This document shows positions 13,292 through 45,626 of a stretch of DNA of 64,000 bases, piece after piece. The stretch's first letter is position 1; every line of letters starts with the position of its first letter. The stretch covers positions 1,247,372 to 1,311,371 of the forward strand of contig NZ_LMID01000001.1 of the NCBI RefSeq assembly GCF_001428605.1, read 5' to 3'. The notes under the pieces are model-generated. The model saw only the letters and a program-made list of their open reading frames with translations, was not told the DNA's origin and did no database searches. Made by a program: the position numbers and the translations under genes. Source of the stretch: Sphingomonas sp. Root720 (GTDB lineage Bacteria > Pseudomonadota > Alphaproteobacteria > Sphingomonadales > Sphingomonadaceae).

Positions 13292-14713
13292 GTGAGCATT
13301 CTTCCTGCAAGCGAAGCGGAATTTTTTGCGCGTAGCACCATTCTCATCATTGGCGCGGGAGCGTGCGGCCTGACGGCTGCTCTAGCGGCGCGTGAACTCG
13401 GCGCTGACGTCCTCATTCTCGAACGCGATGCCGCTCCGCACGGAAATACCAGCCTGTCGCAGGGCACGCTCTATGCCGCCGGCACAAGCTCTCAAATCCT
13501 CAACGGCGTTCAAGACAGCAGCGATATATTGTTCGCGGACCTCATGGCGCAATCAGCCGGATCTGGCGATCCCATCCTTTCGCGCTATGTCGCCGACAAT
13601 GCCGGCAGGACGGTCGACTGGCTCGTCGAAGCACACCGGATTCCGCTCGCCCATCTACCGGAATGGGCGGCATTCGGCCACAGTTGCGCCCGCCTTCACC
13701 GCAATCCGAGCCTGACAGGCGCCGAACTCCATGGCGCCCTGTTACGGGCGGCGAGCGATATGGGTGCAGACCTCGTTACGAACGCTCGCGCGGTCGCGCT
13801 GTTTGCCGAGGAAGACGGCACGGTTCGGGGCGTACGCATCCAACGCCCTGATGGTCTGCGGGAAGACATCGGCTGCGACGTGATGATCCTCGCAACGAAC
13901 GGATATGGCGCGAACAAGCAGATGCTCCGGCGCTTCGCTCCGACGATGGCGGATACACGCTATTTCGGCTGGGAAGGCAACGAAGGAGACGGGATCATCT
14001 GGGGCATGGAATTGGGCGGCGCTCTTGGCGACATGACGTCCGTCCAGAATTTCGGCGCTCTCGCTGAACCCTCGGGTATCATGCTGAGCTATGAAATCTA
14101 TTCCGAGGGCGCCATCCAGATCGATCGCGATGGACGACGGTTCTCGCACGAAATCGAGGATATTTCGGGACAGGGCGATCGCGTCGCCGCGCTTCCGGAT
14201 CAGCTTTCCTGGGTGCTGCTGGATGAACGTCGGCACCGCGAGCTGCTCACGCGCGGTGAGTATCGCGAGGCAATCGAGCTGGGCATCGCCAAGCGAGCCG
14301 AAACGTTCGACGAGCTCGTGTCGATTACGGGTGCCCGACCAGACCTGCTGTGCGACACATTTCGCGAGGTCGAGCTGTTGGCAGGAACCGGCACACCCGA
14401 CCGGTTCAACCGTGTCTTTCCGGCCGATGGCTCGTTCCATGCACCATATTACGCCATCAGGGTCGGTCCCGCACTGCTGCACACGCTGGGCGGCCTTCTG
14501 ATCAATTCTGAGGGGCGGGTCATCCGGGAAGACGGACGGCCCTTGCCTAATCTCTTTGCGGGCGGTGGCGTCATCCGAAATATGGCCGGGCCGAACTCGT
14601 CAGGCTATCTGCCTGGCTCAGGCTTGACGTTGGCCTGTGTCACCGGCCGCTTAATCGGGCAGTCTGCTGGCCGGGCCGCGCTCCTGCGGACCGGTAAAAG
14701 CGCCACCGTCTAG
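13292..14713 (+). CDS. FAD-dependent oxidoreductase, fumarate reductase/3-ketosteroid dehydrogenase type
   Basis: About 473 residues. The N terminus holds the FAD dinucleotide fold (IIGAGACGLTAALAARELGA, then the acidic ILERD). A C-terminal FAD-contact region (NLFAGGGVIRN, then GYLPGSGLTLACVTGRLIG) is typical of flavoproteins that desaturate next to a carbonyl or reduce enoates. GTG 13292 is the preferred start; a TTG at 13250 is open but has no convincing ribosome site. The 3' end overlaps the convergent aldehyde dehydrogenase through a shared CTAG. A second member of the family lies at 22781-24436, so the cluster has two such enzymes. The substrate is unknown; a cyclic ketone or acyl chain is plausible. 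Confidence 0.85.
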   Translation: MSILPASEAEFFARSTILIIGAGACGLTAALAARELGADVLILERDAAPHGNTSLSQGTLYAAGTSSQILNGVQDSSDILFADLMAQSAGSGDPILSRYVADNAGRTVDWLVEAHRIPLAHLPEWAAFGHSCARLHRNPSLTGAELHGALLRAASDMGADLVTNARAVALFAEEDGTVRGVRIQRPDGLREDIGCDVMILATNGYGANKQMLRRFAPTMADTRYFGWEGNEGDGIIWGMELGGALGDMTSVQNFGALAEPSGIMLSYEIYSEGAIQIDRDGRRFSHEIEDISGQGDRVAALPDQLSWVLLDERRHRELLTRGEYREAIELGIAKRAETFDELVSITGARPDLLCDTFREVELLAGTGTPDRFNRVFPADGSFHAPYYAIRVGPALLHTLGGLLINSEGRVIREDGRPLPNLFAGGGVIRNMAGPNSSGYLPGSGLTLACVTGRLIGQSAGRAALLRTGKSATV

Positions 14714-16152
14714 TTTTTCTCGGCGTCCGCCCGGTTTTCTACGATGGTCTGGGCATTGGTATATTCGGCCAGCCCTTCCAGGGCGTTCTCGATGCCGATA
14801 CCCGATTGCTTATGACCGCCAAAGGCGACATGCGGCGAGAAACTGTGGATTTCATTAATCCACACGGTTCCCGCCTCGATGCGTTCAGCGATACTACGAG
14901 CTTGATCTAGGTCACGCGACCAGACCGAGGCGGCCAATCCATATTCGGTATTGTTCGCTCTCGCCACGACATCATCGATATCGCTGAACTTGAGCAGCGG
15001 CAGCACTGGCCCGAAAGCTTCCTCCTGCACCACCCGGGAATTTTCGGGAGGATTGTCCACGATCGTGACGGGCACGAAGAAGCCACCGCTGTCATCGGTG
15101 ACTTCTCCTCCGGCGAGAAAGCGTAACCCGTTCGCTTTCGCGTCCGCGAGAAGGTCTTTCAACTTCTCGAACTGCATCCGATTCTGGATCGGACCAAGAT
15201 CAACCCCCTGTTGCGAGCCATCACCTACCTTTACCGTCGCGGCGTAGGCGACCAGCGCCTGAGCCAGCGCGTCGTAGATCGATTCATGGATGTAGATCCG
15301 CTTGGCCGCTACACAGAACTGGGCGCTGTTCTGGAAAGCCGCCCAGAAGAGTGCTTTGGCGGTGTCCTCGACATCGACATCAGGCAGGACGATCGCCGGA
15401 TCGTTGCCGCCCAGCTCGAGCGTGACGCGTTTGAGGTTCGAAGCCGCCGACGCCATCACTTTCTTGCCGGTTGCGGTCGAACCGGTGAAGCTGATCTTTT
15501 GGACATCGGGGTGACCTGTCAGCCACGCGCCGAGTTCGTTGCCGCCGGACACGACGTTCAGCACGCCCGGAGGCAAGATTTCACGCAGCAACTCCCCCAG
15601 CTTGAGCGTGCAGAGAGACGTGTGGGGTGAAGGCTTGAGGACGACCGTATTGCCGGCCACCAGCGCCGGAGCGATCTTCCAGATGGCAAGCAGGACGGGG
15701 AAATTCCAAGGCGTAATCGCCCCAACCACGCCAAGTGGGACCCGCCGTGTTTCGACCCGCCGACCACTGCTTTCCTCGGCAATGTGCGGCGCCAATTCTT
15801 GATGGGCAATCTCCCGACACCAGATGATCGAACCGCCAATCTCCCATTCCGCTCCGGCGCGCGCCTTGCCCTGCTCCAGCGTCAGCAATCGCTGAAAAGC
15901 GTCCATATGGGTTTCAATGGCGGTACCGATGCTGTCGACGAATGACTGTCGTTCCGCCAGGGTTTTCGCGGCCCAGCCAGGAAAGGCGCGGCGAGCGGCG
16001 GCTACGGCCTGGTCCAGCTGGGAGCGGTCCGCCTCGGGCGCCTGAGCGACCACCCGCCCCGTCGCCGGATTATAAGCATCAAACCACGAGCGGGCCGGCG
16101 CATCAATCCCGTCGATGGTCATGCGATAATCGGACCAAAAATCGATAGACAT
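14710..16152 (-). CDS. NAD(P)-dependent aldehyde dehydrogenase
   Basis: 480 residues, standard ALDH length. Visible motifs are TPWNFP (oxyanion Asn), the FTGSTATGKK cofactor loop, the general-base Glu in LELGGN, the nucleophilic Cys in NSAQFC, and the C-terminal EEAFGPVLPL. All catalytic residues are present, so it should oxidise an aldehyde to its acid. It is followed on the same strand, upstream in transcription order, by the acyl-CoA synthetase and alcohol dehydrogenase. Together they make an alcohol, aldehyde, acid, CoA-thioester series, the same logic as the geraniol/geranial steps of monoterpene catabolism. Substrate assignment is inference. Confidence 0.92.
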   Translation of the reverse strand: MSIDFWSDYRMTIDGIDAPARSWFDAYNPATGRVVAQAPEADRSQLDQAVAAARRAFPGWAAKTLAERQSFVDSIGTAIETHMDAFQRLLTLEQGKARAGAEWEIGGSIIWCREIAHQELAPHIAEESSGRRVETRRVPLGVVGAITPWNFPVLLAIWKIAPALVAGNTVVLKPSPHTSLCTLKLGELLREILPPGVLNVVSGGNELGAWLTGHPDVQKISFTGSTATGKKVMASAASNLKRVTLELGGNDPAIVLPDVDVEDTAKALFWAAFQNSAQFCVAAKRIYIHESIYDALAQALVAYAATVKVGDGSQQGVDLGPIQNRMQFEKLKDLLADAKANGLRFLAGGEVTDDSGGFFVPVTIVDNPPENSRVVQEEAFGPVLPLLKFSDIDDVVARANNTEYGLAASVWSRDLDQARSIAERIEAGTVWINEIHSFSPHVAFGGHKQSGIGIENALEGLAEYTNAQTIVENRADAEKN

Positions 16153-16172: not shown

Positions 16173-17708
16173 TCAGGGCATCGGTGCTGGTGGAATTGCT
16201 TCGCGAAGTTCGCGCCGCAATATCTTGCCGGTGCTCGACTTCGGCAGGTCGTCGACGAATACGTAGAGGCGAGGCACCTTATAAGGTGCGAGGTGGTCGC
16301 GACAGTGACGGTCAAGTTGTTGGGCCGTGCACTGCGTGCCGGGCCGCAGGACCACGAAGGCTTTGGCGAGCTCTCCCTTTTCGAGGTCCACCATCGGTGC
16401 AACGGCGACCATCGCAACTGACGGATGGAGGGACAACACCTGTTCCAGCTCCGCAGGATAGATATTGTACCCGCCGGTTATGATCACGTCCTTTCGACGG
16501 TCGACGATCCTGAAATAGCCATCGGCATCGCGAACCGCGATGTCGCCTGTCGCCAACCAGCCATCCGATGCGATGCTCTGGTCGGTGGCCACAGGGTCAC
16601 GCCAATAACCGGGTGTCACTTGAGGACCACGCACCAGGAGCTCGCCGGGCTCTCCGTCGGCGGCGGCGTGGTCCTTGTCGTCAAGCGACGCCAATCTGGT
16701 CTCGACATTCGGGAAGGGCAGCCCGATCGAGCCGTGTCGCGGGGGCCAATGGGGCGAGTGCGACATCGCCGGCCCCGCCACCTCGGTCATCCCCCACAAT
16801 TCGCACAATGGGCAACCGAAGCGGGCGACAACCTCGTCGATCCGCGCCAGCGGCATCGTCTGCCCGCCGACGGTGCAGCACCGTAGCGACGAGAAATCGG
16901 TCGCGTCGATCCCGGGGTGGGTAAGCATCTGATAATACATGGTGGGTACGCCCTCGAACAGGGCGGGCCCTTCCTTGCCGATGGCCGCGAGAGCTTCTCC
17001 CGGATCGAAACGGGGAAGGACGACAAGGCGCATGCCCACGAGAAGCGCCGCATTCATGACGACATTGCCATAGACATGGGTGAAGGGGAGCGCAGTCAAC
17101 ACGGTTTCGCCACGCACCCGGCCATGAACCATAGCCGTCATGGCGGCGCTGGCGAAAACGGCTCTATGCGTTTGGATTGCACCCTTGGGCCGCCCGGTCG
17201 TTCCTGACGTGTAGCAGATCGTGAAAAGGTCGTCGGGCGCTACCTCGATGGGGTCGAGCGGATGACCGCTCAGCAGCGCCTCAAATCCGTCTTCGGTGGA
17301 GGCATCGGTGAGGATGGTCAGTAACCGACGTTCCCACCCCCTGGCTTGGTGGATAGCTTCACGACGCGCTGCTGGCACGATCATGGCCGCAACATCAGCG
17401 TCGGCAGCCATGTAAGCCACTTCGGAACTGGTCAGGAGCGTATTGACCGGGACCACCACCGCCCCCAGCCTGGCGAGCGCATGATAGGCGATCAGCCACT
17501 CCGCTCCGTTGGGCAGATGCAGCAGTACCCGATCGCCGCGGCGCACGCCTCGGGCCGCCAGCCCGCCTGCAAAGCAAGCGGACTGGGCATCCAGAACGCC
17601 AAAGCTCAGATCACGCTGCCCCGCCATGGAAAGAGCCGTCGCTCCCCGAAAGAGGCTGCCGGCACGGGATGCCAAACCACTGATTGTCCCGGCAAGGGGC
17701 ACGCTCAT
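16173..17708 (-). CDS. AMP-forming acyl-CoA synthetase (fatty-acid/aromatic acid ligase type)
   Basis: 511 residues. The adenylate-forming signature YTSGTTGRPKG is near residue 165, followed by the WGMTE motif, the ATP-binding GWLATGDIAVRDADGY, the hinge DRRKDVI, and the catalytic C-terminal lysine in KSSTGKILRRELRE. It activates a carboxylic acid as an acyl-AMP and then as a CoA thioester. The start overlaps the alcohol-dehydrogenase stop (TGATG), so the pair is coupled. A GTG one codon earlier (17711) is also possible. It probably acts after the aldehyde dehydrogenase in the same pathway. The acyl specificity cannot be read from sequence. Confidence 0.9.
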   Translation of the reverse strand: MSVPLAGTISGLASRAGSLFRGATALSMAGQRDLSFGVLDAQSACFAGGLAARGVRRGDRVLLHLPNGAEWLIAYHALARLGAVVVPVNTLLTSSEVAYMAADADVAAMIVPAARREAIHQARGWERRLLTILTDASTEDGFEALLSGHPLDPIEVAPDDLFTICYTSGTTGRPKGAIQTHRAVFASAAMTAMVHGRVRGETVLTALPFTHVYGNVVMNAALLVGMRLVVLPRFDPGEALAAIGKEGPALFEGVPTMYYQMLTHPGIDATDFSSLRCCTVGGQTMPLARIDEVVARFGCPLCELWGMTEVAGPAMSHSPHWPPRHGSIGLPFPNVETRLASLDDKDHAAADGEPGELLVRGPQVTPGYWRDPVATDQSIASDGWLATGDIAVRDADGYFRIVDRRKDVIITGGYNIYPAELEQVLSLHPSVAMVAVAPMVDLEKGELAKAFVVLRPGTQCTAQQLDRHCRDHLAPYKVPRLYVFVDDLPKSSTGKILRRELREAIPPAPMP

Positions 17709-18814
17709 CACGAGGCGGGCCGAAGGACGGCCTTCAGAACTTCGCCATGGGCGGATGCGCGGGCAGCTTCCTCGATCTCGGCGAGCGGGTAAAAGCGGAT
17801 CAGTCTGTCAAAAGGGAAACGTCCCTGCCGCCACAGTTCGATCAGCTGCGGAATGAAGATGTCTGCCACGCTGTCGCCTTCGATGATTCCGCGGACGGTA
17901 CGGCCAAAGAGCAAGCCGTTGATATCGAGCGACACCTCCGTACCGAGCGGAGCAACGCCGATCACGCCGCAGGTTCCCGTCAGCCGAAGAGCATCGACGG
18001 CTTGCCGCAAGACCGGCGGTAAACCAGTACACTCGAGCGAATATTGGACACCTTCGCCGGCAGTCACCGAACGGATTTCGTCGACCACATGCGCACCGGC
18101 CGTTAAGCTGTGGGTCGCACCCAGCTCTCGCGCCAACGCCAACCGGCTGTCCTTAAGATCGACGGCGATGATCGTTGTGCAACCGACAACTCTTGCCGCC
18201 ATGATAGCGGCAAGACCGACCGAGCCGGTCCCGAAGATTGCGATGCTTGAGCCGGCGGCCGGCTTGAGCGCATTGATGACCGCGCCCGCACCGGTCTGTA
18301 TCCCGCAGCCCAGCGGTCCCATGATCTCGAGCGGTACATCCTTGGTGATCGGCACGACATTCTGCTCGGTCGCGAGCGCATATTCGCCGAACGATGACTG
18401 CGCGAAGAAAAAGCTACTGAGCCGCCCGCCCTCGGCGTCGCAGCACGGGGAGGAGCCGTCTGGCCGTGCGCCGGCAAAGTTGCGGCCATAAAGATCAATG
18501 CAATAGCCATGAAGGCCGCGTCGGCAGTTCTGGCAGACGCCACAACTCGCAAAGCTCAGCACAACGTGATCGCCGGGCGCGACCTTGGTCACCCGAGCCC
18601 CCACTTTTTCGACTATTCCCGCACCTTCATGACCAAGAACCGCCGGCAGCGGAGTCGGGAAATATTGGTCGCGCACCACCAGATCGGTGTGACACATGCC
18701 AGTGCCGACGATCTTGACCAGAACCTCATGGTCGCGGGGCTCTTCCAGCCTGACCCGTTCCAGGGTGAAGGGCCCGCAGGGGTTGCGGACGACCGCGGCG
18801 CTCATTTCAATCAT
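17708..18814 (-). CDS. zinc-dependent alcohol dehydrogenase (AdhC/aryl- and terpene-alcohol type)
   Basis: 368 residues. The catalytic zinc site is seen in GMCHTDL and GHEGAG, the structural zinc cysteines in CGVCQNCRRGLHGYC, and the Rossmann loop in FGTGSVGLAA near residue 195. The arrangement matches medium-chain dehydrogenases of the benzyl-alcohol and geraniol-dehydrogenase group, which oxidise primary allylic or aryl alcohols with NAD. The start has GAGG five bases upstream. It is the first gene of the alcohol dehydrogenase, acyl-CoA synthetase, aldehyde dehydrogenase transcript and is divergent from the TetR gene. The shared control region has 19-bp direct repeats. Confidence 0.92.
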   Translation of the reverse strand: MIEMSAAVVRNPCGPFTLERVRLEEPRDHEVLVKIVGTGMCHTDLVVRDQYFPTPLPAVLGHEGAGIVEKVGARVTKVAPGDHVVLSFASCGVCQNCRRGLHGYCIDLYGRNFAGARPDGSSPCCDAEGGRLSSFFFAQSSFGEYALATEQNVVPITKDVPLEIMGPLGCGIQTGAGAVINALKPAAGSSIAIFGTGSVGLAAIMAARVVGCTTIIAVDLKDSRLALARELGATHSLTAGAHVVDEIRSVTAGEGVQYSLECTGLPPVLRQAVDALRLTGTCGVIGVAPLGTEVSLDINGLLFGRTVRGIIEGDSVADIFIPQLIELWRQGRFPFDRLIRFYPLAEIEEAARASAHGEVLKAVLRPAS

Positions 18815-18938: not shown

Positions 18939-19577
18939 ATGGCAATGGAGATCGAAACTCAGCTTGGCTATCGCACCGAAACCGGCCGCAAGAGGCGCGA
19001 ACGGACCCGGTATAAGCTGATCGAGGCCGCCGCTCGGCTCGTGGCGCACCAAGGCGCGGATAGCGCGACGATCGACGACTTCGCACGCGAGGCGAAGGTC
19101 GCGAGGGGGACGTTCTACAATTATTTCCCCACCCGCGAGGATCTCCTCGAGGCCTTGTGGGCGCATGTAGGCCACGTCCCGTTCCATCGGATTCAACAAG
19201 CCATCACGGTGTTCGACGACCCCGCTAAACGGATCGTCGCCACCATGCATCTCGTTGCCCACCATGCCGACGAAGATTCCATTTGGGGATGGCTGCTTCT
19301 CTCGATGTCGGGCCTGAGCCAGGTGAACGTGGATTTGCGGGCCTATCCAACGCCGGACCTAAAACTGGGCCTTCAGTCGGGACGATTCTCGTTCAACGAT
19401 TTGACCAGCGCACGCGACCTGGTCGTCAGCGCCGTGCGCGCCATGCTCCGCGCCCGCCTCGAGCAGCGGGCGTCAGATGCTTATGTCGCTGATCTGGCAC
19501 GAATGCTTTTGCTGGCGCTGGGCGTCCGAGAGCCAGAGGCTTCTGAACTTAGCATGGATCCTTCGCCGATCACATGA
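18939..19577 (+). CDS. TetR-family transcriptional regulator
   Basis: 212 residues. The N-terminal DNA-binding domain is typical: RERTRYKLIEAAARLVAHQG, then ATIDDFAREAKVARGTFYNY with the FYNYF end of the recognition helix near residue 61. The C-terminal half is a helical ligand-binding domain without recognisable specificity. It is divergent from the alcohol-dehydrogenase operon and convergent with the LinD-like gene, with 17 bp between stops. This position suggests it represses one or both and responds to a pathway substrate. The GTCA repeats directly upstream are candidate operators. An ATG two codons later is an alternative start. Confidence 0.88.
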   Translation: MAMEIETQLGYRTETGRKRRERTRYKLIEAAARLVAHQGADSATIDDFAREAKVARGTFYNYFPTREDLLEALWAHVGHVPFHRIQQAITVFDDPAKRIVATMHLVAHHADEDSIWGWLLLSMSGLSQVNVDLRAYPTPDLKLGLQSGRFSFNDLTSARDLVVSAVRAMLRARLEQRASDAYVADLARMLLLALGVREPEASELSMDPSPIT

Positions 19578-19594: not shown

Positions 19595-21130
19595 TCAGTA
19601 CCACCGCAGCGCGATTGCCGTCCGCGCGGAAAGGTGAAGACCGACAGACAATGTGTCGTCAGCTATTAGAACATTGATATGGGGATTCCCTCCGCCGGCA
19701 GATGAACACACGACTTCACCATCGACGCTAAGCTCCCAGCCCGCGGCAGTAGGCTGACGGCCAACTTCAAAGCGAATTATAGCGGGCTCGTTCTCGACTG
19801 GAAGCGCGACCCAATGCAAGGTTCTCGCATCCTCGTCGTAATACGCCATCTCCAAATCCACCCTACCGGCAATGGAGACAATGGCTGGTGTGTTCTTGCG
19901 CGCCGTGCTCCATTGCCCCTCGTAGATCGCTTTCAACCCTCCCGGAACATTCAACCGAGCGTAGCCTAACAGGACATTTCCGCTATGGGGGTCCATCGCG
20001 GCCAGATAGCCTTCATCGTCATGGATCGTGTCATGCCGACGATAGAAAAGTCCCCCGCGGTCCCAGCTGCGATGAAGGCGTGCGTCGGCATAACGTAGTA
20101 ATCCATCCAAAACCGCCTGGTCCCCTACTTCCGAGGCGCATACCGCCGCCCACCCGAAGTCGAGCGCGGACGAGAGACCGGCGCGGGCGAAACCTTGGGA
20201 CAGATCGACCCAGGCCGTATCAGCCGGTCCGGGCCGTATCCATATGTCGCGAGCAACGGCGTAATGCTGCGCCACAGTCTCGGGATTCCATGCGTGCATG
20301 AGAGCCCCAAGCCAGAAATCCGACCATGGCGATGGCGGACTTGGGAGGGATCGCTCCTTCTGCTGCACCATGACGTTGAAGTGCCCGGCCTCGTTCGAAA
20401 TTCCGAATTCGGCCCAGGCACGAAGATAGCCATCGGTTACTTCCTGCGCGCGCGATCCACCATAGATGAGGTCCTCTAGTCGGAAGCCGAGGATCGACGG
20501 TTGATTGCAGATCTGGAATATGCAGTTGGGTTCGCAGGCCACGCCGAGATAGCCATTTTCCACCATCTGCCAGTAGATATGCTCGCTCAACGAGCGTTCG
20601 TCATTGATGAAGATTTTCGGCCCGTCTCCCCAGAAGAGTGGCCTCAACGTGAGCGTTAGCGCGCCGGGTTCGCTATAGCGCGCGTCGTCGAATATATGAT
20701 GGTAGAGCAGCGCGGCCGACTGGAGATACGCGCTGTACATGATGTTGTCCCTGATCACGGGATTCCATTCAGCCGGCAGTTCGCCCAAGCTGTGATTGAG
20801 CACGCCATTGCCCGTGCTGACATAGTGCCAATAGGCCCAGACATCCGGGGAACATAATTTCTCGATCAGCCTGGCGAATGGTTCACGGAACAATCCCGGT
20901 GCTGCCGGCAAGCGATGCACATGCGTAAGCGCGAGCGCATAGCAAGCATATGCAAGCTGAAAGCGGAGAGCGCCGAAGTCCTCTTGTAACGTGCTCCGGC
21001 CCATCATCCCCGACCAGTCGTCGGGCAATTGCTCGGCGAGGTTTATGAGGCGCCGCAAATGCCCTCGCTGATCGCGATCGAGGCTTAGCGGACGAGGTTG
21101 CGGGGAGGTGGGCTTTGCAGCAGCGATCAT
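19595..21130 (-). CDS. linalool dehydratase/isomerase (LinD)-like protein
   Basis: 511 residues from ATG 21130, which has AGGAG six bases upstream; two earlier ATGs in frame sit inside the long inverted repeat and lack ribosome sites. By eye the central region matches Castellaniella LinD: RDNIMYSAYL near 127-136, and CEPNCIFQIC with Cys199 and Cys208 nine residues apart, exactly the spacing of the two active-site cysteines of LinD. The LinD catalytic His (in YKGH) is Tyr135 here, and the two LinD active-site tyrosines appear replaced, so the chemistry or substrate is probably different. LinD is about 397 residues with a signal peptide. This protein has no signal peptide and about 90 extra beta-rich residues at the C terminus. 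Neighbouring alcohol and aldehyde dehydrogenases and a CoA ligase support a role in dehydrating or isomerising a terpenoid or tertiary alcohol. Confidence 0.75.
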   Translation of the reverse strand: MIAAAKPTSPQPRPLSLDRDQRGHLRRLINLAEQLPDDWSGMMGRSTLQEDFGALRFQLAYACYALALTHVHRLPAAPGLFREPFARLIEKLCSPDVWAYWHYVSTGNGVLNHSLGELPAEWNPVIRDNIMYSAYLQSAALLYHHIFDDARYSEPGALTLTLRPLFWGDGPKIFINDERSLSEHIYWQMVENGYLGVACEPNCIFQICNQPSILGFRLEDLIYGGSRAQEVTDGYLRAWAEFGISNEAGHFNVMVQQKERSLPSPPSPWSDFWLGALMHAWNPETVAQHYAVARDIWIRPGPADTAWVDLSQGFARAGLSSALDFGWAAVCASEVGDQAVLDGLLRYADARLHRSWDRGGLFYRRHDTIHDDEGYLAAMDPHSGNVLLGYARLNVPGGLKAIYEGQWSTARKNTPAIVSIAGRVDLEMAYYDEDARTLHWVALPVENEPAIIRFEVGRQPTAAGWELSVDGEVVCSSAGGGNPHINVLIADDTLSVGLHLSARTAIALRWY

Positions 21131-21140
21131 CAGGAACTCC

Positions 21141-21194
21141 TGCCTCGGCATTACCAAATTGACCACAAAATGTCAATTTGGTAATGCCGAGGCA
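21141..21194. repeat. perfect 23-bp inverted repeat between LinD-like and SCO genes
   Basis: The left arm at 21141-21163 and right arm at 21172-21194 are exact reverse complements over 23 bases, separated by an 8-base A-rich centre. The element sits in the divergent promoter of the LinD-like and SCO-family genes, 10 bp above the LinD-like ribosome site. It could be a paired operator. It contains CAAATTGAC, shared with the TetR/ADH control region, which suggests a common regulator. It could also act as a bidirectional hairpin in either transcript. Confidence 0.7.
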
Positions 21195-21241: not shown

Positions 21242-21733
21242 ATGACGTTGGACCACGAAGGCTCATTCTCCCTGACCGATCATGACGGCCTGGACGTCAC
21301 GCAATCCGATTTCCGAGGCAGGTTCATGCTCGTCGCCTTCGGCTTCACCCACTGTCGCGTGGTCTGTCCCCGTGTGCTCGGCCGCATCTCTGACGCGCTC
21401 GATCTGCTGGAGCCGTTGGCCAAACAAATTCAGCCAATCTACATCACCGTGGACCCAGAGCGCGACACCCCCGATGCCATGCGCAGGTTTCTCACCCAGC
21501 GCTATCCGCGCTTTCGCGGCCTGACAGGGACCGCTGCACAGATCGATCGGGCGAAGGCGAGCTTCAAGGTTTTCGCGCAGCACCGCGACGACCCCGACGA
21601 TCCAGCTGGCTATGCCGTAGCGCACACGGCTTTTGCCTATCTGATGGACCGCACCGGCGGCTATCGGACCCATTTTGCCGATGCTGGGGATGCAGCGCAA
21701 CTAGCCGGGTCCCTGCATCGATTCCTGGATTAA
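21242..21733 (+). CDS. SCO1/SenC/PrrC-family thioredoxin-fold protein
   Basis: 163 residues from ATG 21242. It has the copper-binding/thiol motif FTHCRVVCP (Cys38, Cys42), the distal histidine at 128 in VAHTAFAYL, and the family DPERDTP segment at 71-77. SCO proteins normally deliver copper to cytochrome oxidase CuA or act as thiol reductases and carry a membrane anchor. This one has no signal or membrane segment from the chosen start, and the upstream codons add none, so it appears cytoplasmic. Its place beside the LinD-like gene rather than with oxidase genes is unusual. It may maintain a thiol in that enzyme, which is speculation. Confidence 0.82.
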   Translation: MTLDHEGSFSLTDHDGLDVTQSDFRGRFMLVAFGFTHCRVVCPRVLGRISDALDLLEPLAKQIQPIYITVDPERDTPDAMRRFLTQRYPRFRGLTGTAAQIDRAKASFKVFAQHRDDPDDPAGYAVAHTAFAYLMDRTGGYRTHFADAGDAAQLAGSLHRFLD

Positions 21734-21776: not shown

Positions 21777-22367
21777 TCAGGACGGATTTCCTCGGAGCCA
21801 CTCATAAGAAGGATCGTCGCGATTGGCCGAGCCGCGGAATCTCAGCTTATTGACGAGACCCGTTGTAGTGGCGGTGGCAATCCCACATTTGGTCCAGTCG
21901 GCCACAAGCCGCCGTGTCTTGATGCGCCACTGATCGTCGCGCCTTTCGAAGAGGTCGAGATAGCGACCGCCGATTATATAGTCATAGTGCCGCGAACGAT
22001 CGCCGCCAAGATTCTCCAGCGTTTCGAGGCCAAGCATGGCTTCGGCACTGTCGGATGTTGGCCGAGAGCGATGATAGGCGATAAAATAGGTTTCCCCATA
22101 TGCTCGCCCTCCATCCAATTCGATAATCGAGTTGAGCATGAAATGCTGCGTCACATCCATGATGTGATCGAGCAACTCGCACATCGCCCCCGTTAGATCT
22201 CTCGAAGGTCCATCGATCGGGCCACCCTCGAAACCGCCATCCGGCCAGAACACGGCCGCGAAAATTTCGGGGTCCCTGCGGTCTGCAGCCCGCGCGTAGC
22301 GCATGATAACATCAAGAATCCGCTGCCGATCAACGATCTCGGTAATAAGGTTAGCATCAACGTCCAT
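21777..22367 (-). CDS. SnoaL-like/NTF2-fold protein
   Basis: 196 residues. The N-terminal 140 residues follow the SnoaL_4 pattern: an early IVDRQRILDVIMRYARAADR helix, then the FWPDGGFEGG and THFML-like segment (here VTQHFMLNSIIEL), and a YLDLFERRDDQWRI strand pair. Members of this group include polyketide cyclases, dehydratases, ring-hydroxylating dioxygenase beta-like subunits and many small hydrolases. No clear catalytic His-Asp set can be assigned by eye. It lies between the SCO gene and the second flavoprotein and probably belongs to the same catabolic cluster. Function remains open. Confidence 0.78.
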   Translation of the reverse strand: MDVDANLITEIVDRQRILDVIMRYARAADRRDPEIFAAVFWPDGGFEGGPIDGPSRDLTGAMCELLDHIMDVTQHFMLNSIIELDGGRAYGETYFIAYHRSRPTSDSAEAMLGLETLENLGGDRSRHYDYIIGGRYLDLFERRDDQWRIKTRRLVADWTKCGIATATTTGLVNKLRFRGSANRDDPSYEWLRGNPS

Positions 22368-22780: not shown

Positions 22781-24436
22781 ATGACGGACCCGTATGACTT
22801 CATCATCGTGGGCAGCGGCGCCGCCTCGGTATGTGCGGCCTTGGTCGCCCGCGAGGCCGGAAAACGGCCGCTGATCATAGAGAAATCAGACAAATTCGGC
22901 GGGACGACAGCACTATCCGGCGGGGTGATGTGGATCCCAAATTCCACCGTGATGGCGCGGGCCGGAGCCGTCGACAGCGAGGAAGCAGCGCGACGCTATC
23001 TTGATGCGTGCGCGGGCGACCCCGAACCTGCCTCAACGCTCGAAAGGCGCGCGGCGTATCTTCGTGAAGCCCGTCTTGCTATTCTTTTCCTAGAACAACA
23101 GGGAATGGAATTCACTTACTCCGACGGCTGGTCCGATTATTATGAGGGAGAATATCCTGGAGCCATGGCTCGGGGCCGCTCCATCGAAGCGAAAATCTTT
23201 AATCTGCGACGGCTGGGGGAGTCACGCCACCGACTGCGTCGCCCCGAGAAGCCGCTTCCACCTGTGTCCAATCCGGAAGTCATTCAACTGACGCTGAACG
23301 GTCGCACTTGGACCAGCAAGCGCGCCTTTCTTACGGTTGCTCTGCGCATGCTGCGGAACAAGCTGGGGCAGGAATGGGTGCGCATGGGCGCAGCTTTACA
23401 GGCACGCTTGCTCGAAATCGCTCTGCGCGAGAAGATCGATATCTGGTATGATGCCCCGTTACAGGATCTTGTACTGGAAAACGGAAAAATCGCCGGCGTG
23501 GTAATTGTCCGCAACGGTGAGAAGGTGACCGTACAAAGCCGTCACGGTGTTCTCCTCAATGCCGGAGGCTTCTCTCAAAGTGATGAGATGCGGCGCACCT
23601 ATCAACGCCCTTCAACAAGCAGGATGTTCAGCGCCGCCAATCCCGGCGACACAGGTGAGGTCATCAGCATCGCGATGAATTCCGGTGCAGCCACGGCAAT
23701 GATGGATGAGGCATGGTGGATACCGACATCGCGCCTTGCCGACGGGACTGTTCTGTTCAACGTGATCGAACTGGCCCGGCCTCATTGTATGTTGGTCGAC
23801 AGCCGGGGGGCGCGGTTTGTCAACGAAGCGGGGGATTATTGCGCACTAGGCCACGCAATGTTCAATCGCAGCAAGTCGGTATCGGCTGACCCGAGTTGGG
23901 CTATTCTCGATCATCAACACCGCAGCCGCTATTGGTGGGGCCTCCAGCCGCCGGGTGCGGTGCCCAAAGAATGGCTTGAATCGGGCTACATGATCCGCGC
24001 CGACAGTTTGGAGGAGCTGGCTCAATGCTGCGGCTTGGAGATTGAAACGCTCAGGTCTTCGGTGGACCGTTTCAACGCCTTTGCGGCAGTGGGCGTGGAC
24101 GAGGATTTCCACCGCGGCCGAGGTGCGCTTAGCCAATATCTCGGTGATACAACCTCATCGCCCAATCCCTCGCTAGGCGCCATCTGCAAGCCTCCGTTTT
24201 ATGCGGTGCGGATCCACGCTGGCGACGGAGGCACCTGTGGTGGTCTCCTCACAGACGAGTTGGCGCGTGTGTTAAACGACGCTGGTCTTCCGATTCCAGG
24301 CCTTTATGCCACGGGGAATACGACGGCGACAGTCATGGGTCGAAGCTGCCCAGGATCAGGTGCGACAATTGGCCCATCGCTCACCTTTGGTTACATTGCT
24401 GCACGCCATGCGAGTGGCACGAACATCCGCGACTAG
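22781..24436 (+). CDS. FAD-binding dehydrogenase, 3-ketosteroid-delta1-dehydrogenase/fumarate reductase type
   Basis: 551 residues, close to the usual 550-570 for KstD-type enzymes. The FAD fold is at the N terminus (FIIVGSGAASVCAALVAREA, then IIEKSDKFGGTTALSGG). The substrate-domain region GARFVNEAGDY and the C-terminal GNTTATVMGRSCPGSGATIG with ITFGYIAA-like ending (here LTFGYIAARHA) complete the family pattern. The SGGVMWIPN segment is characteristic of flavoproteins that desaturate alpha,beta to a ketone. Ribosome site GGGAGAG. This is the second such flavoprotein in the cluster and the closer match to KstD. A steroid or terpenoid ring substrate is plausible but not shown. Confidence 0.88.
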   Translation: MTDPYDFIIVGSGAASVCAALVAREAGKRPLIIEKSDKFGGTTALSGGVMWIPNSTVMARAGAVDSEEAARRYLDACAGDPEPASTLERRAAYLREARLAILFLEQQGMEFTYSDGWSDYYEGEYPGAMARGRSIEAKIFNLRRLGESRHRLRRPEKPLPPVSNPEVIQLTLNGRTWTSKRAFLTVALRMLRNKLGQEWVRMGAALQARLLEIALREKIDIWYDAPLQDLVLENGKIAGVVIVRNGEKVTVQSRHGVLLNAGGFSQSDEMRRTYQRPSTSRMFSAANPGDTGEVISIAMNSGAATAMMDEAWWIPTSRLADGTVLFNVIELARPHCMLVDSRGARFVNEAGDYCALGHAMFNRSKSVSADPSWAILDHQHRSRYWWGLQPPGAVPKEWLESGYMIRADSLEELAQCCGLEIETLRSSVDRFNAFAAVGVDEDFHRGRGALSQYLGDTTSSPNPSLGAICKPPFYAVRIHAGDGGTCGGLLTDELARVLNDAGLPIPGLYATGNTTATVMGRSCPGSGATIGPSLTFGYIAARHASGTNIRD

Positions 24437-24692: not shown

Positions 24693-25542
24693 GGCGGGAT
24701 CGACATTCAGGATTCCCAAGGGGGCTGATCCCTGATTCATAGGACTCCGTGTTGAAGCGCGGAGCGGACGATGGGGACCAAGCGATACGAGTTGAACGAT
24801 GCGCAGTGGGCGAAAGTCGCGCTGCTGCTGCCGGGCAAGGTAGGCGATCCTGGGCGGACGGGGTCCGATAACCGATTGTTTGTGAACGGATGTTTGTGGG
24901 TTCTGCGGTCTGGCGCCCATTGGTGTGATTTGCCTGAGCGCTATGGCCGCTGGAAGACGGTGCACCGACGCTTCAGTCGCTGGTGTCACGCCGGCGTATG
25001 GGAGCGGGTGTTCGATGCGCTCACCACGGACCGCGACAACCAGTATCTGATGATCGACAGCACCATCGTTCGCGCCCACCAGCAGGCGGCGACCGGAAAA
25101 GGGGGGCCCAGGACCAGGCGCTGGGGCGTTCCCGAGGAGGGCTGACGACCAAGATCCATATGCTTGCCGATGCCTTGGGTCGGCCGTTGCGGTTCCGTAT
25201 CACGGCTGGCCAGGCCCATGACATCACCGCCGCTCCAGCTCTTCTGGAGGGTCAGGAAGCGGATGCCATACTCGCCGATAAAGCATATGATAGTAATGAA
25301 TTACGCGAGACGATCGCTCAGATGGATGCGCAGGCGGTCATCCCGTCCAAGCGCAATCAGAAGGTCTTCATCTCGCACGACACCGAACTCTACAAGCAGC
25401 GCAATCGGATCGAGAGATGCTTCGGACGCCTCAAGCATTTCCGCCGCTTCGCAACGCGCTACGACCGGCGAACCGTCCACTTCGCCGGATTCATTCACCT
25501 CGCCGCAGCCATGATCTGGTTACGTTGAATGTCGATCCGGCC
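24693..25542 (+). mobile_element. IS5-family insertion sequence, about 850 bp
   Basis: The left end GGCGGGATCGACATTCA (24693-24709) and the reverse complement of the right end at 25526-25542 agree over 17 bases with one mismatch. Between them lies one transposase gene in two overlapping frames. No target duplication is obvious in the flanks. The element sits between the catabolic cluster and the AlpA/DUF559/integrase block of the island. Confidence 0.85.
24771..25528 (+). CDS. IS5-family transposase, two frames joined by -1 frameshift
   Basis: The first frame runs 24771-25145 (N-terminal helix-turn-helix domain, first catalytic Asp in LMIDSTIVRAH). The second frame continues to 25528 (second Asp in ILADKAYDSNELR, Glu in NRIERCFGRLKHFRR). 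The frames overlap at an AAAAGGGGGG run near 25098-25107, where a -1 slip joins GKGG to AQDQALGRSRGG, the expected family sequence. That fits programmed frameshifting in this IS group, so the element may be active rather than broken. The complete product would be about 250 residues with a full DDE triad. A plain frameshift mutation is the alternative. Confidence 0.85.
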
Positions 25543-27748: not shown

Positions 27749-28966
27749 TTACGCTTGCTTCCGAAACTTGCCTCGAACAACCTTCCCGCCAATGCGCAGC
27801 CGGTCCAGGTAGTCTGACCACCACTGCGCCATTCGAACCCGCTCGGCCCAGTGCGCTCCACGATGGTAGGCCGCCCTTACCTTGTTGTGCTCGCCATGTG
27901 CGAGCGCCCGCTCAATAGCATCCGGATGCCAGAGCCCTGACTCATTAAGCAGAGTGCTCGCCATTGCGCGAAAACCGTGACTCGTCATCTCGTCGTGGCC
28001 GTACCCCAGGCGTCGCAGGGCGACATTAAGTGTATTATCAGACAGTGGCCGCCGGGTAGTGTGAAGCGCGGGGAACAGAAATTCGCTCTGGCGCGCAAGG
28101 GACCGCAGTTCCTGGAGCAGATAGAGCGACTGTTTCGACAGCGGCACCGCGTGCGGTTGCTTCATCTTCATCCGCTCAGCCGGTACCCTCCATACCTTCT
28201 CGGCGAAATCGACTTCCTCCCATTTCGCTTGCCGAAGCTCACCCGGGCGCAAGAAAACATGCGGCGCCAGCCGGAGTGCAAAGACCGTCTCGGGCCGACC
28301 GCTATAGCCGTCGATGGCACGAAGCAGGGTTCCTACCTTGGCCGGCTCAAGGATCGCGGCGTGATGTTTAACCTGCGGCACAATGAGCGCGCCGCGCAGA
28401 ATATCGGCCGGATTACGTTCGGTTCGCAGGGTCGCAAATCCATAGCGGAAGACGCGTCCCGCGAAGGCACGAAGACGTAAGGCCGTCTCATGATGGCCCC
28501 GCCGCTCGACCCGCTTGAGGACATCGAGCAGTTCATGGGGTGTGATCGACGCAATGGGCCGTTTGCTGATGTGGTCGAGGAGATCGAGAAACCAACGCGC
28601 CTTCTTGATAGTAGCTGGTGCCTTCCCTTCCCGCTCGATCTTCTGGATATATTCCTCGGCGACAAGCTTGAACGTCGTCTTCGCGGCCAGCTCCGCCTCC
28701 AGCTTTCGCTGGCGCTTCTCCTCGACAGGATCGATTCCTTCCTCGAGTTGATTGCGTGCTTCGTCTCGCGCTTTGCGGGCGTCCTGCAAAGATACGTCCG
28801 GGAATGCGCCAAAGGAAAGCTTCTTCTCGATGCCGAATTTCCTAAAGCGGAAACGCCACAGCAACGAGCCGCTAGGCTGCACCAGAAGATAGAGACCTTT
28901 TGCGTCCGCAACCTTGTAAGGACGGGCTGCGGGCTTGAGAGAGCGAATCTGGGTGGTTGTAAGCAT
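27749..28966 (-). CDS. P4-type tyrosine integrase (DUF4102 N terminus)
   Basis: 405 residues from ATG 28966, with AGGAGG upstream; 25 more in-frame codons exist without support. The N terminus is the arm-binding DUF4102 domain (IRSLKPAARPYKVADAKGLY), followed by a SAM-like core-binding domain and the catalytic domain. Tyrosine recombinase residues are visible: Arg in HVFLRPGELR, HGFRAMAS for the His-x-x-Arg box, and the nucleophilic Tyr in VRAAYHR. The gene ends away from, and starts 154 bp below, the 3' end of tRNA-Thr. That is the standard arrangement for islands integrated in a tRNA. It should catalyse integration and excision of the left-hand island. Confidence 0.93.
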   Translation of the reverse strand: MLTTTQIRSLKPAARPYKVADAKGLYLLVQPSGSLLWRFRFRKFGIEKKLSFGAFPDVSLQDARKARDEARNQLEEGIDPVEEKRQRKLEAELAAKTTFKLVAEEYIQKIEREGKAPATIKKARWFLDLLDHISKRPIASITPHELLDVLKRVERRGHHETALRLRAFAGRVFRYGFATLRTERNPADILRGALIVPQVKHHAAILEPAKVGTLLRAIDGYSGRPETVFALRLAPHVFLRPGELRQAKWEEVDFAEKVWRVPAERMKMKQPHAVPLSKQSLYLLQELRSLARQSEFLFPALHTTRRPLSDNTLNVALRRLGYGHDEMTSHGFRAMASTLLNESGLWHPDAIERALAHGEHNKVRAAYHRGAHWAERVRMAQWWSDYLDRLRIGGKVVRGKFRKQA

Positions 28967-29119
28967 AGTGGGCCACGCCTCCTTCGAAGCTTCGTGGTCC
29001 CATGTTTTTTGGCCCACTTTGAGTGGACCACGGTGGAACATAGTGAGATAACATGAGACCGTGAAGGCTCATTTATACCTTGTTTTACAAGGTTTTTCTA
29101 CCATGTTCTGGATATGTAC

Positions 29120-29195
29120 TGGTGCCGCTTACAGGACTCGAACCTGTGACCCCCGCATTACGAATGCGATGCTCTACCAACTGAGCTAAAGCGGC
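29120..29195 (-). tRNA. tRNA-Thr (anticodon CGT)
   Basis: Read on the minus strand, the 76-base gene folds as a standard cloverleaf. The acceptor arms are GCCGCTT and AAGCGGC, the D arm is GCTC/GAGC, and the anticodon stem encloses loop TTCGTAA with anticodon CGT. The T arm contains GGTTCGAGTCC and CCA is encoded. The 3' end faces the integrase, making it the likely attachment site of the island. Confidence 0.96.
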
Positions 29196-40892: not shown

Positions 40893-41903
40893 TCAGGACT
40901 GGTCGATCCAGCCCTTCAATTCTTCGCCGATGAGACGTTCGAGCATCGCCATGCCGGGGGCGCCGTCGTTGAGGCAGGGGAGATAGGCGAAGCTCTCGCC
41001 CCCCGCCGCCAGGAACTGGTCGCGGCCGCGGATCGCCAGTTCCTCGAGCGTCTCGAGGCAGTCGGCGGAGAAGCCCGGCGCGATCACCGCCAGCCGGCGC
41101 ACGCCGTCCCTGGCCAGCTTGGCGAGCATCGCCTCGGTCGAGGGTTCGAGCCAGCGGGCGCGGCCAAAGCGCGACTGGAAGGAGACCTGCAGCTCGCGGC
41201 CCAGCGCATCGCCCAGCAGCCGCGCGGTCTTCCGGCAATGGCAATGATAGGGATCGCCGAGGTCGAGCGTGCGCGCCGGCATGCCGTGGAAGCTGGCGAG
41301 GATCGCGTCGGGTTCGCCGTGCAGCGCCGCCAGCCCCTCGCGCACCGACGTGGCCAGCGCGGCGATATAGGCGGGATCGTCATGATAGGGCGGCAGGGTA
41401 CGGATCGCCGGCTGCCAGCGCATCTTCGCGAGCGCGGCGAAGGCCGCGTCGTTGGCGGTGGCGGTGGTCGCCGCGCAATATTGCGGATAGAGCGGCGCGA
41501 TCAGGATGCGGTCGCAGCCGAGGGCCTTGAGCGCGGCGATGCGGTCGGCGATCGCCGGCTTGCCGTAGCGCATCGCATGATCGACGATCACCCCTTCGCC
41601 GAAGCGCCCCGTCAGCGCCGCCGCCTGCCGCGCCGTGATCGCGGCCAGCGGCGATCCCTCTTCGCTCCACACCTGCGCATAGGCATGGGCCGACTTGCGC
41701 GGCCGGGTGTTGAGGATGATGCCGCGCAGGATTGGCTGCCAGGCGATCGGCGGGATCTCCACCACGCGCCGGTCCGACAGGAACTCGGCCAGATAGCGCT
41801 TCACCGCGCCGGGCGTCGGCGCGTCGGGCGTTCCCAGGTTGACGATCAGCACGCCGACCTTCGGCGTCGCGACGGGCCCATGTCCTTCCGGCAAGGCGCT
41901 CAT
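40893..41903 (-). CDS. hemH: ferrochelatase
   Basis: 336 residues. The N-terminal VLIVNLGTPDAPT, the LYPQYCAATT segment, the metal-site SFHGMPART histidine and the SFQSRFG segment are typical of HemH. A later glutamate in CLETLEELAIRG belongs to the second metal-ligand region. It inserts Fe2+ into protoporphyrin IX in the last step of heme synthesis. Its ATG overlaps the stop of the IorB-like gene (ATGA), so the two are coupled. Heme A synthase lies upstream of that gene on the other strand, so heme functions cluster loosely here. Confidence 0.95.
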   Translation of the reverse strand: MSALPEGHGPVATPKVGVLIVNLGTPDAPTPGAVKRYLAEFLSDRRVVEIPPIAWQPILRGIILNTRPRKSAHAYAQVWSEEGSPLAAITARQAAALTGRFGEGVIVDHAMRYGKPAIADRIAALKALGCDRILIAPLYPQYCAATTATANDAAFAALAKMRWQPAIRTLPPYHDDPAYIAALATSVREGLAALHGEPDAILASFHGMPARTLDLGDPYHCHCRKTARLLGDALGRELQVSFQSRFGRARWLEPSTEAMLAKLARDGVRRLAVIAPGFSADCLETLEELAIRGRDQFLAAGGESFAYLPCLNDGAPGMAMLERLIGEELKGWIDQS

Positions 41904-44158: not shown

Positions 44159-44304
44159 CGCGACATGATAGGCGGGCGGATGGTATGAAACCACCCGAAT
44201 TGTCATTTGGACGAAAGTCCAACGGCCGCCGGGTGCCCCCTTGCCGCCATGCCGGCGAAGCGGGGCCTTTGCGTAAGAGCCCATCTCCTTTCTCGTCATC
44301 GTCA

Positions 44305-44388
44305 TCCCGGCGAAAGCCGGGACCTCTCTGCCTTTCCACCTTCGGGAAGAAAGACGAAGATGAAGGGAGATCCCGGCTTTCGCCGGGA
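44305..44388. repeat. paired hairpin repeats (REP-like)
   Basis: Two hairpins, each TCCCGGC with a 4-base loop and GCCGGGA, lie at 44305-44322 and 44371-44388, in opposite orientation with about 48 bp between. Short palindromes of this sequence recur between genes in sphingomonads. They lie in the 424-bp region between the IorB-like and ctaA genes, which is otherwise without a gene. Confidence 0.65.
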
Positions 44389-44437
44389 TGACGGAAGGGG
44401 ACGGCGTTACGCAAAGATCCCGCGAAGGCTGGCATTG

Positions 44438-44505
44438 ATGTCTGTTTTCTCGACAGATGCCATCTGGCTGATGAGAGACATGGACCCAGCCTTCGCTGGG
44501 GTGAC
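44438..44505 (+). repeat. dispersed intergenic repeat, copy 1
   Basis: 68 bp, ending with an AGCCTTCGCTGGGGTGAC-type hairpin tail. The same sequence, about 85% identical with a 28-bp identical core, occurs inverted at 59036-59104. The two copies lie 14.6 kb apart in unrelated intergenic regions. It looks like a non-autonomous or REP-type element rather than part of either gene. Confidence 0.65.
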
Positions 44506-44582
44506 GCTTCAGGATAGCCTTCTCCTCCGGGAAGACCTCCGCCACGCTTGATCCGTCCTCCACGGTGGCGCATGAGCGCGCC

Positions 44583-45626
44583 ATGTCGCTGCTCGCCCGC
44601 CCCGCCCTCCCTTCGCCACGCCCGCGCGCGCTGGCCGACTGGCTGCTGTTCGTCGCCGCGCTGGTCTTCGCGATCGTCGTCGTCGGCGGCATCACGCGGT
44701 TGACCGAGTCGGGCCTGTCGATCACCGAATGGAAGCCGGTCCGCGGCATCATCCCGCCGCTCGACCAGGCCGAATGGCAAGCCGAGTTCGAGAACTACCA
44801 GCGCATCCCGCAATATGCGGCCTTCAACCTCCACATGACGCTGGAAGGCTTCAAGCAGATCTATTTCTGGGAATATCTGCACCGGCTGCTGGCGCGCGGC
44901 ATCGGCGCGGTGCTGGCGGCGGTGATGGTCGTCGCCTGGTGGAAGCGGGCGATCCCGGCGGGCTATGGCTGGCGGATGATCGGCATCTTCGCGCTCGGCG
45001 GTCTGCAGGGCGCGATCGGCTGGTGGATGGTCTATTCGGGCCTGTCGGCACGGACCGAGGTCAGCCATATCCGCCTCGCCACCCACCTGATCGCCGCGCT
45101 GCTGATCTTCTCGGCGCTCATATGGACGGTGCTCGACCTGCGCCGGCTGGCGCGCGACGCCGCTGCCCGGCCGGCGCGACCGACGGGCCTGGCGATCGCC
45201 GCCGTCCTGATCCTGGCCGTCCAGATCATGCTCGGCGCGTTCGTCGCGGGCCTGCGCGCGGGCTATGCCTTCGCAAGCTGGCCCAAGATGGGCGAGCAAT
45301 GGTTCCCCTCGGGCGGATGGAACGCCGCGCTCGGCTTCGCCAACCTCCACGACAATCCGATCGTGGTGCAATTCGTCCACCGCTGGTGGGCCTGGGTCGC
45401 CGCCCTCGCCGCGCTCGCGGTTGCCCGCGCGGCGAGGGCGGCGGGCGCGGTCGGCCCGGTCCATGCGGTCGCAACCCTGGTCGTCCTGCAGATCGGTCTC
45501 GGCGTCGCGACGCTACTGACGGGCGTCGACATCTCGGTTGCGGTCGCCCACCAGGCCGTGGCGGTGCTGCTGCTGGCCGGGCTGTTGTGGGCCGCGCACG
45601 GCCTCGACAACCGCAAGGTATCATAA
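44583..45626 (+). CDS. ctaA: heme A synthase (COX15/CtaA)
   Basis: About 347 residues, with eight hydrophobic segments. The N-terminal ALADWLLFVAALVFAIVVVG and GGITRLTESGLSITEWKP match the COX15 family. Paired helix histidines are seen in EYLHRLLARGIG, HIRLATHLI, QFVHRWWAW and VAHQAVAV, the four heme-ligand positions. It converts heme O to heme A for aa3-type oxidases. ATG 44583 is chosen; a GTG at 44565 is in frame. The repeats above lie just upstream. The window has the heme genes hemH and ctaA but no oxidase subunits. Confidence 0.93.
   Translation: MSLLARPALPSPRPRALADWLLFVAALVFAIVVVGGITRLTESGLSITEWKPVRGIIPPLDQAEWQAEFENYQRIPQYAAFNLHMTLEGFKQIYFWEYLHRLLARGIGAVLAAVMVVAWWKRAIPAGYGWRMIGIFALGGLQGAIGWWMVYSGLSARTEVSHIRLATHLIAALLIFSALIWTVLDLRRLARDAAARPARPTGLAIAAVLILAVQIMLGAFVAGLRAGYAFASWPKMGEQWFPSGGWNAALGFANLHDNPIVVQFVHRWWAWVAALAALAVARAARAAGAVGPVHAVATLVVLQIGLGVATLLTGVDISVAVAHQAVAVLLLAGLLWAAHGLDNRKVS

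Follow-up and report, generated by a model that had tools for sequence, protein, structure and literature searches.

A branch of the linalool dehydratase/isomerase family linked to a distinct type of Sco protein

The linalool dehydratase/isomerase of Castellaniella defragrans, LinD (EC 4.2.1.127 / 5.4.4.4; structures 5hlr, 5g1u and 5i3t), and the linalool isomerase of Thauera linaloolentis, Lis, are named as the sole known members of their family in the part of a 2018 review that covers them (PMC6013536). LinD-type enzymes yield dienes and chiral tertiary alcohols, have no known cofactor and are sensitive to oxygen. Lis is a relative of LinD with four predicted N-terminal membrane helices, a cytoplasmic catalytic domain and reductant-dependent activity in the sections that characterise it (PMC4791888), and a reductant is given as a requirement of both enzymes in the corresponding passages (PMC6013536, PMC4791888). 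The substrates of LinD include aromatic and larger alcohols, according to the relevant portion of a further article (PMC12455561). In Castellaniella, ldi, geoA and geoB are described as lying in one island, with a ligase gene named geoC near geoA (PMC4109377, gene-cluster passage); in Thauera, lis is listed together with geoAB and atu genes, and C. defragrans is stated there to lack the Atu pathway (PMC4847356, passages on the two pathways). Sco proteins, in turn, are portrayed in the excerpted accounts as membrane-anchored periplasmic copper chaperones (PMC9145763), able to serve as disulfide reductases as well (PMC6307045, PMC9145763), even though some in vitro assays failed to show thiol-oxidoreductase activity; one of these accounts also mentions roles in oxidative-stress defence and prokaryotes that have SCO genes without COX2 (PMC6307045).

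The window, i.e., the whole 64,000-nucleotide stretch of Sphingomonas sp. Root720 DNA analysed here, encodes a protein that a sequence-only reading had taken for a divergent LinD-like dehydratase/isomerase in a catabolic cluster. The open reading frame (19595-21166, minus strand) specifies 523 amino acids from a GTG or 511 from the ATG at 21130, the start used in that reading and the one from which our m-numbers are counted. The family assignment held: the protein matches the PF18566 Ldi profile with 374.6 bits (E 6.3e-112; curated cut-off 26.1 bits), and LinD chains were the only PDB matches at E ≤1 in a single-sequence search (best 2.6e-7) and the only strong ones in a family-profile search (1.8e-41), in which they were followed by a designed protein at E 0.037. 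The superposition proposed with the reading likewise returned the LinD fold, the structural model of the window enzyme forming a LinD-type alpha/alpha barrel at approximately 20% sequence identity to LinD. Because the superposition stops at m412, about 99 C-terminal residues are additional, close to the roughly 90 that had been estimated. By hydropathy, the enzyme has neither an N-terminal hydrophobic segment of the kind expected for a LinD-type Sec signal peptide, in agreement with the reading, nor the four N-terminal transmembrane helices of Lis, and it is probably cytoplasmic and soluble.

Table 1. Features of the window discussed in the text (LDI, enzyme of the linalool dehydratase/isomerase family).
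Feature	Position	Strand	Remarks
Aldehyde dehydrogenase (PF00171)	14710..16152	-	profile
AMP-binding acid-CoA ligase	16173..17711	-	best solved relative feruloyl-CoA synthetase 8wev
Zinc alcohol dehydrogenase	17708..18814	-	best solved relatives 5tnx and benzyl alcohol dehydrogenase 1f8f
TetR regulator (PF00440, PF21306)	18939..19577	+	relatives beside several clade LDIs
LDI-family enzyme (PF18566)	19595..21130	-	511 aa from ATG; barrel m12-412, C-terminal beta domain m416-510
Trp269 codon (LinD Tyr240)	20324..20326	-	alignment
Cys208 codon (LinD Cys180)	20507..20509	-	Cys in 59/59 rows
Cys203 codon (LinD Asn175), third cysteine, clade-specific	20522..20524	-	27/27 clade, 0/32 others
Cys199 codon (LinD Cys171)	20534..20536	-	Cys in 59/59 rows
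Tyr135 codon (LinD His129)	20726..20728	-	alignment
Phe57 codon (LinD Tyr66)	20960..20962	-	alignment
Sco-type (SCO1/SenC, PF02630) partner, no membrane anchor	21242..21733	+	open frame from GTG 21203; ATG 21242 fits relatives

The pair of cysteines nine residues apart, on which the reading had been founded, aligns with Cys171 and Cys180 of LinD (numbering of 5g1u), and the catalytic His129 is indeed replaced by tyrosine. The suspected loss of active-site tyrosines was confirmed for two, with phenylalanine in place of Tyr66, which we take to be an active-site residue, and tryptophan in place of Tyr240; LinD residues before 50, including Asp39 and Tyr45, lie outside the alignment, and the model of the window enzyme is poor at m40-53. 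Judged by these residues, the enzyme is a genuine member of the Ldi family but, with His129 and Tyr66 both exchanged, not LinD proper.

For comparison, we assembled 59 homologous open reading frames: that of the window, 19 from 17 loci found in a scan of named genomes, 3 from 12 plasmid records and 36 from genomes located with PF18566; weak PF18566 matches (L035 and L054, 80 bits) and the remaining 9 plasmid records were left out before counting. The family is uncommon, with matches in 19 of 397 Sphingomonadaceae genomes, 3 of 398 genomes drawn across the phylum, 1 of 250 in the order of G843 and 9 of 249 in the order of G847 (all counts include the centre genome). Hydropathy, together with inspection of the N-termini by eye, distinguished 3 architectures among the 59 rows, namely membrane-anchored and Lis-like, apparently exported, and soluble, the last represented by the window enzyme. 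In a tree of the 59 rows and the LinD fragment, the window enzyme belongs to a clade of 27 rows (support 100/99); LinD itself, on a long branch, is not placed with confidence. The clade spans Pseudomonadota (Sphingomonas, Sphingobium, Niveispirillum, Bradyrhizobium, Agrobacterium, Pseudomonas, Variovorax and Xenophilus) and Actinomycetota (Streptomyces, Amycolatopsis, Kutzneria, Saccharothrix, Pseudonocardia, Mycobacterium and Rhodococcus), and its rows are not all independent, L008/L011 and L009/L010 being near-identical pairs. All but 1 of its 27 members lack a hydrophobic N-terminal segment. The exception, L024, encoded on a plasmid of Rhodococcus erythropolis BG43, has a lipoprotein-like signal (by eye); it combines Cys203 with a histidine at the His129 position and lies behind aldehyde dehydrogenase, alcohol dehydrogenase and ligase genes, with no Sco gene on the 25.6 kb fetched. 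We regard it as a candidate for myrcene/linalool-type chemistry in actinobacteria.

Against this background, the reading stood in its family, fold and residues but not in the singularity it had attached to them. The His129 position is occupied by Tyr in 30 rows, Phe in 14, Trp in 8 and His in only 7, and lack of the histidine, seen in 52 of 59 rows, is thus the rule in the family. Nor is the C-terminal extension special to the window enzyme, a notion we rejected on finding A429 invariant in 59/59 rows and P415, V426 and L438 conserved in at least 90%. The epithet 'divergent' is apt as to distance from LinD; as to isolation it fails, and the idea of a unique enzyme was discarded in view of the 27-row clade and the 5 PF18566 genes in the window's own genome. 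The other 4 of these lie two each on contigs C11 and C14 (L026, L028). What sets the clade apart is a combination of residues: Phe at the Tyr66 position in 26 of 27 members (Tyr 31 and Phe 28 across all rows), Tyr for His129 in 25, Trp for Tyr240 in 25 and, without exception, Cys for Asn175. The resulting motif of the window enzyme reads C-E-P-N-C-x-F-x-x-C; by DSSP of the model, Cys199 and Cys203 lie in 2 short strands (198-200 and 203-205) and Cys208 close to where the following helix (206-223) begins.

The clade is further distinguished by its neighbour. The Sco-type protein encoded beside the window enzyme matches PF02630 with 149.7 bits (cut-off 22.8) and contains the CxxxC motif and distal histidine of that family. 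A gene for a Sco protein of the same type, recognisable by the sequence CxxxCPR, adjoins the enzyme gene in 21 of the 26 clade members that appear to be cytoplasmic, or in 21 of 27 once the apparently exported one is counted, and no adjacent Sco was found for the 32 rows outside the clade, among them 3 (L094, L111 and L116) whose locus runs into a contig end on one side (Fisher P 5.7e-11 for 21/27 versus 0/32, uncorrected for relatedness). In 14 of the 21 pairs, the Sco gene starts between -10 and +11 bases from the stop of the enzyme gene on the same strand. The other 7 have frames extended by early starts, Sco upstream (L015) or, in the window, a divergent arrangement, the Sco ATG at 21242 facing away from the enzyme ATG at 21130. 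In 2 further loci, L018 and L025, a CPR-type Sco lies 8-10 kb upstream, and L013 is at a contig edge. In G847 and G848, the linked Sco is the sole PF02630 match of the genome. The variation in layout while the pair persists argues against a merely inherited operon. Two loci count against a dedicated pair: in L019, no Sco gene occurs up to about 16 kb to either side of the enzyme (a second clade enzyme in the same genome has one), and L006 has a periplasmic-type Sco directly beside its clade enzyme, its CPR-type Sco being about 11 kb away (L138). In L006 (9544-10119) and L106 (11983-12579), a periplasmic-type Sco with the motif CPDICPT and a hydrophobic N-terminus is encoded about 3 kb from an apparently exported LDI-family enzyme, a pattern that would suit one Sco per compartment.

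The partner constitutes a distinct type of Sco protein. All 24 distinct Sco proteins from the clade clusters carry CxxxCPR and lack a hydrophobic N-terminus (17-residue hydropathy ≤1.14, or too short), and no membrane anchor or lipoprotein signal was detected by hydropathy in the window protein. The 19 proteins used for comparison (17 of 26 unlinked matches from 13 genomes and 2 encoded near exported LDI-family enzymes) instead have C[PA][DE][VI]CP[TLVI] and a hydropathy of at least 1.44. The clade-cluster proteins group together, apart from these 19, in a quick tree (local support 0.74). The 3 copper ligands, 2 Cys and a His, are kept in 24/24, and a further histidine (codon at 21671 in the window) is invariant in the same 24 and not conserved in the 19. 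A search of 397 Sphingomonadaceae genomes with a linked Sco at E ≤1e-30 returned 53 matches, spread over 52 genomes; the best 5, in G000 (two), G004, G567 and G699, are of the CPR type, and these 4 genomes are the ones of the draw in which clade enzymes were found. Among the best 31 of the 53 matches, comprising the window's own and 30 read as loci (4 CPR and 26 CPD-type), the CPR type was confined to these 4 genomes. A co-regulated stress gene whose product makes no contact with the enzyme, as the part of the literature that ascribes to Sco proteins a role in oxidative-stress defence might suggest (PMC6307045), would not be expected to track clade enzymes in this manner, nor to stay paired with them in several layouts and two phyla alongside a clade-specific cysteine; we regard this explanation as highly improbable.

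Together, the additional invariant cysteine and the apparently dedicated Sco partner make thiol-redox or copper dependence worth testing, and the 'cofactor-free' character that had been surmised for the window enzyme is doubtful. That a thioredoxin-fold Sco protein probably shares its compartment with a three-cysteine enzyme points to thiol maintenance in air, in line with the reductant requirement of LinD and Lis (PMC6013536, PMC4791888) and with the disulfide reductase role described for Sco proteins (PMC6307045, PMC9145763). Most of the clade genera are known as aerobes. We propose, with about an even chance of being right, that the window enzyme is a cytoplasmic allylic-alcohol isomerase/(de)hydratase which feeds the adjacent dehydrogenases and CoA ligase and whose cysteines are kept reduced by the dedicated Sco. 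Working by acid-base chemistry within the LinD-type barrel through Cys199 and Cys208, the enzyme would shift or eliminate the hydroxyl group of a (tertiary) allylic alcohol, and the primary allylic alcohol produced would be oxidised by the dehydrogenases and activated by the ligase, much as proposed for ldi-geoA-geoB-geoC of Castellaniella. Oxygen would oxidise the cysteine cluster, with Cys203 joining a resolvable disulfide, and the CxxxC of Sco would reduce this disulfide, so that a normally oxygen-sensitive enzyme could work in aerobic bacteria. Several points weigh against this proposal: reduction of thiols in the cytoplasm could be left to thioredoxin, with no need of a special partner; the copper ligands kept in all 24 Sco proteins would be superfluous in a pure reductase; 3 LinD active-site side chains are, by alignment, changed; and the in vitro assays in which Sco proteins showed no thiol-oxidoreductase activity (PMC6307045) speak against it as well.

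The full conservation of these ligands leads to a bold alternative, a copper-loaded enzyme. In its general form, which we consider distinctly unlikely, a cytoplasmic Sco loads Cu(I) onto Cys199, Cys203 and Cys208, and the thiolate-bound copper serves as a soft Lewis acid on an alkene or allylic alcohol; still less probable is the specific version of a copper-dependent allylic-alcohol isomerase, in which a cytoplasmic Sco metallochaperone supplies Cu(I) to a site of three cysteines inside the LinD-type barrel. To our knowledge, such an enzyme would be the first cytoplasmic client of a Sco protein, the first member of its family to depend on a metal, and a Cu(I)-alkene catalyst of biological origin. 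The second, type-specific histidine of the Sco proteins and the third cysteine, invariant in the clade, fit a copper site, but free copper is scarce in the cytoplasm and convergence of the 3 thiols is not visible in the DSSP string. His70, likewise invariant in the clade, probably points away from the pocket, given its place on the helix 13 residues from Phe57; a metal site that includes it was thought unlikely. The function of Sco proteins elsewhere is in favour of copper, as far as the chaperone section of the source goes (PMC9145763); LinD and Lis, which show no cofactor in the passages concerned (PMC4791888, PMC6013536), are not.

The catabolic setting, which the reading had also recognised, bears on the substrate of the proposed isomerase/(de)hydratase. 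Beyond the 3' end of its gene come the TetR gene on the opposite strand and then, on the strand of the enzyme itself, the alcohol dehydrogenase, AMP ligase and aldehyde dehydrogenase genes (the neighbour census, into which antisense shadow frames were mixed, is used here for TetR only). The resemblance of dehydrogenase and ligase to 5tnx, 1f8f and feruloyl-CoA synthetase fits an allylic or benzylic alcohol. Contig C11 of the same genome carries a similar dehydrogenase/ligase set (74, 61 and 77% identity) with an enzyme-Sco pair and a second, apparently exported LDI-family enzyme, and C14 a less similar set with 2 LDI-family enzymes. The gene order is enzyme, Sco, alcohol dehydrogenase, ligase and aldehyde dehydrogenase in L007 and L085 (G004), and aldehyde dehydrogenase, alcohol dehydrogenase, ligase, enzyme and Sco in L017. 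All 3 cassette genes occur together with strong scores in the fetched flanks of 7 of 26 clade loci (in two of which the locus ends within the aldehyde dehydrogenase), while L108, an eighth locus, has an alcohol dehydrogenase match of only 62 bits; the full cassette is therefore not universal.

The simplest explanation, that the window enzyme is a plain equivalent of LinD or Lis acting on linalool or geraniol, its changed residues reflecting neutral drift, draws on the shared family, fold and cysteine pair, on the same kind of downstream enzymes and on the lack of the histidine in Lis-like rows as well. However, the identity of about 20% to LinD and the clade-wide changes at Tyr66, His129, Asn175 and Tyr240 are hard to reconcile with it, and no match to AtuA (PF07287) was found in the window's genome, making the Atu route for linalool or geraniol unlikely in this organism and its downstream route different from that of Thauera. 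The last point is tempered by C. defragrans, which is also without Atu (PMC4847356, pathway passage), and by the clade at large: of 20 clade genomes, G000, G567, G835, G836 and G839 gave no AtuA match, G004 only weak ones and the remaining 14 strong ones, against a background of 13 of 94 in Sphingomonadaceae. AtuA is thus not a feature that the clade shares throughout, and linalool or geraniol degradation via Atu was rejected as the clade-wide route. In one Kutzneria genome (G848, C1:5279301-5294536), an AtuA gene lies approximately 12 kb from the enzyme-Sco pair. We consider a plain equivalent very unlikely and, in view of the missing AtuA match, the earlier suggestion of a new substrate plausible.

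It is also possible, though unlikely, that the barrel has been reused for different chemistry for which Sco is needed, e.g., hydration or dehydration of a steroid, diterpenoid or aromatic substrate. A flavoprotein encoded near the enzyme-Sco pair (22781-24436) resembles 3-ketosteroid-delta-1-dehydrogenases, at a score below the curated cut-off, the neighbours in L015 include Rieske and LigB aromatic-degradation proteins, and the part of the literature on LinD substrates extends to aromatic and larger alcohols (PMC12455561). Neighbours vary between loci, though, and the alcohol dehydrogenase and ligase of the cassette fit an allylic or benzylic alcohol, as in the reading we prefer, that of an allylic-alcohol isomerase/(de)hydratase. 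Other features of the window include a SnoaL-like protein (21777-22367) next to the enzyme-Sco pair, an IS4/5-type transposase split over two frames (24771-25528; PF13340, then a DDE domain) and a molybdopterin dehydrogenase large subunit (41903-44752; PF02738/PF20256). A tyrosine integrase gene (27749-29041, minus strand) adjoins a tRNA-Thr gene (29120-29195, minus strand), and the cluster lies on the integrase side of this tRNA and may thus be on a genomic island; within the window, a search for an attachment-site repeat of the tRNA-Thr end matched only the tRNA itself.

A Sco-linked branch of the family in Pseudomonadota and Actinomycetota would supply new enzymes, and a dedicated Sco partner would be a natural answer to the oxygen problem of LinD-type enzymes; conversely, the enzyme would give Sco proteins that have no role in cytochrome oxidase a defined client. 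In the open-licence articles searched, we found no reported activity for any clade member and, among the matches listed, no description of the Sco-linked branch.

Compared with the described systems, the window enzyme differs from LinD by the exchanges His129 to Tyr, Tyr66 to Phe, Tyr240 to Trp and Asn175 to Cys, by the absence of a signal peptide, by its extra C-terminal beta domain and by its Sco partner. Lis, which was compared by description only, has 4 membrane helices where the window enzyme has none, and the rows of Lis-like architecture lack both Cys203 and a Sco neighbour. The partner shares the Pfam family, CxxxC motif and distal histidine of the SCO1/SenC/YpmQ copper chaperones, but differs from them in having no anchor, CPR in place of CP[TLVI], an extra conserved histidine and a gene linked to that of an LDI-family enzyme.
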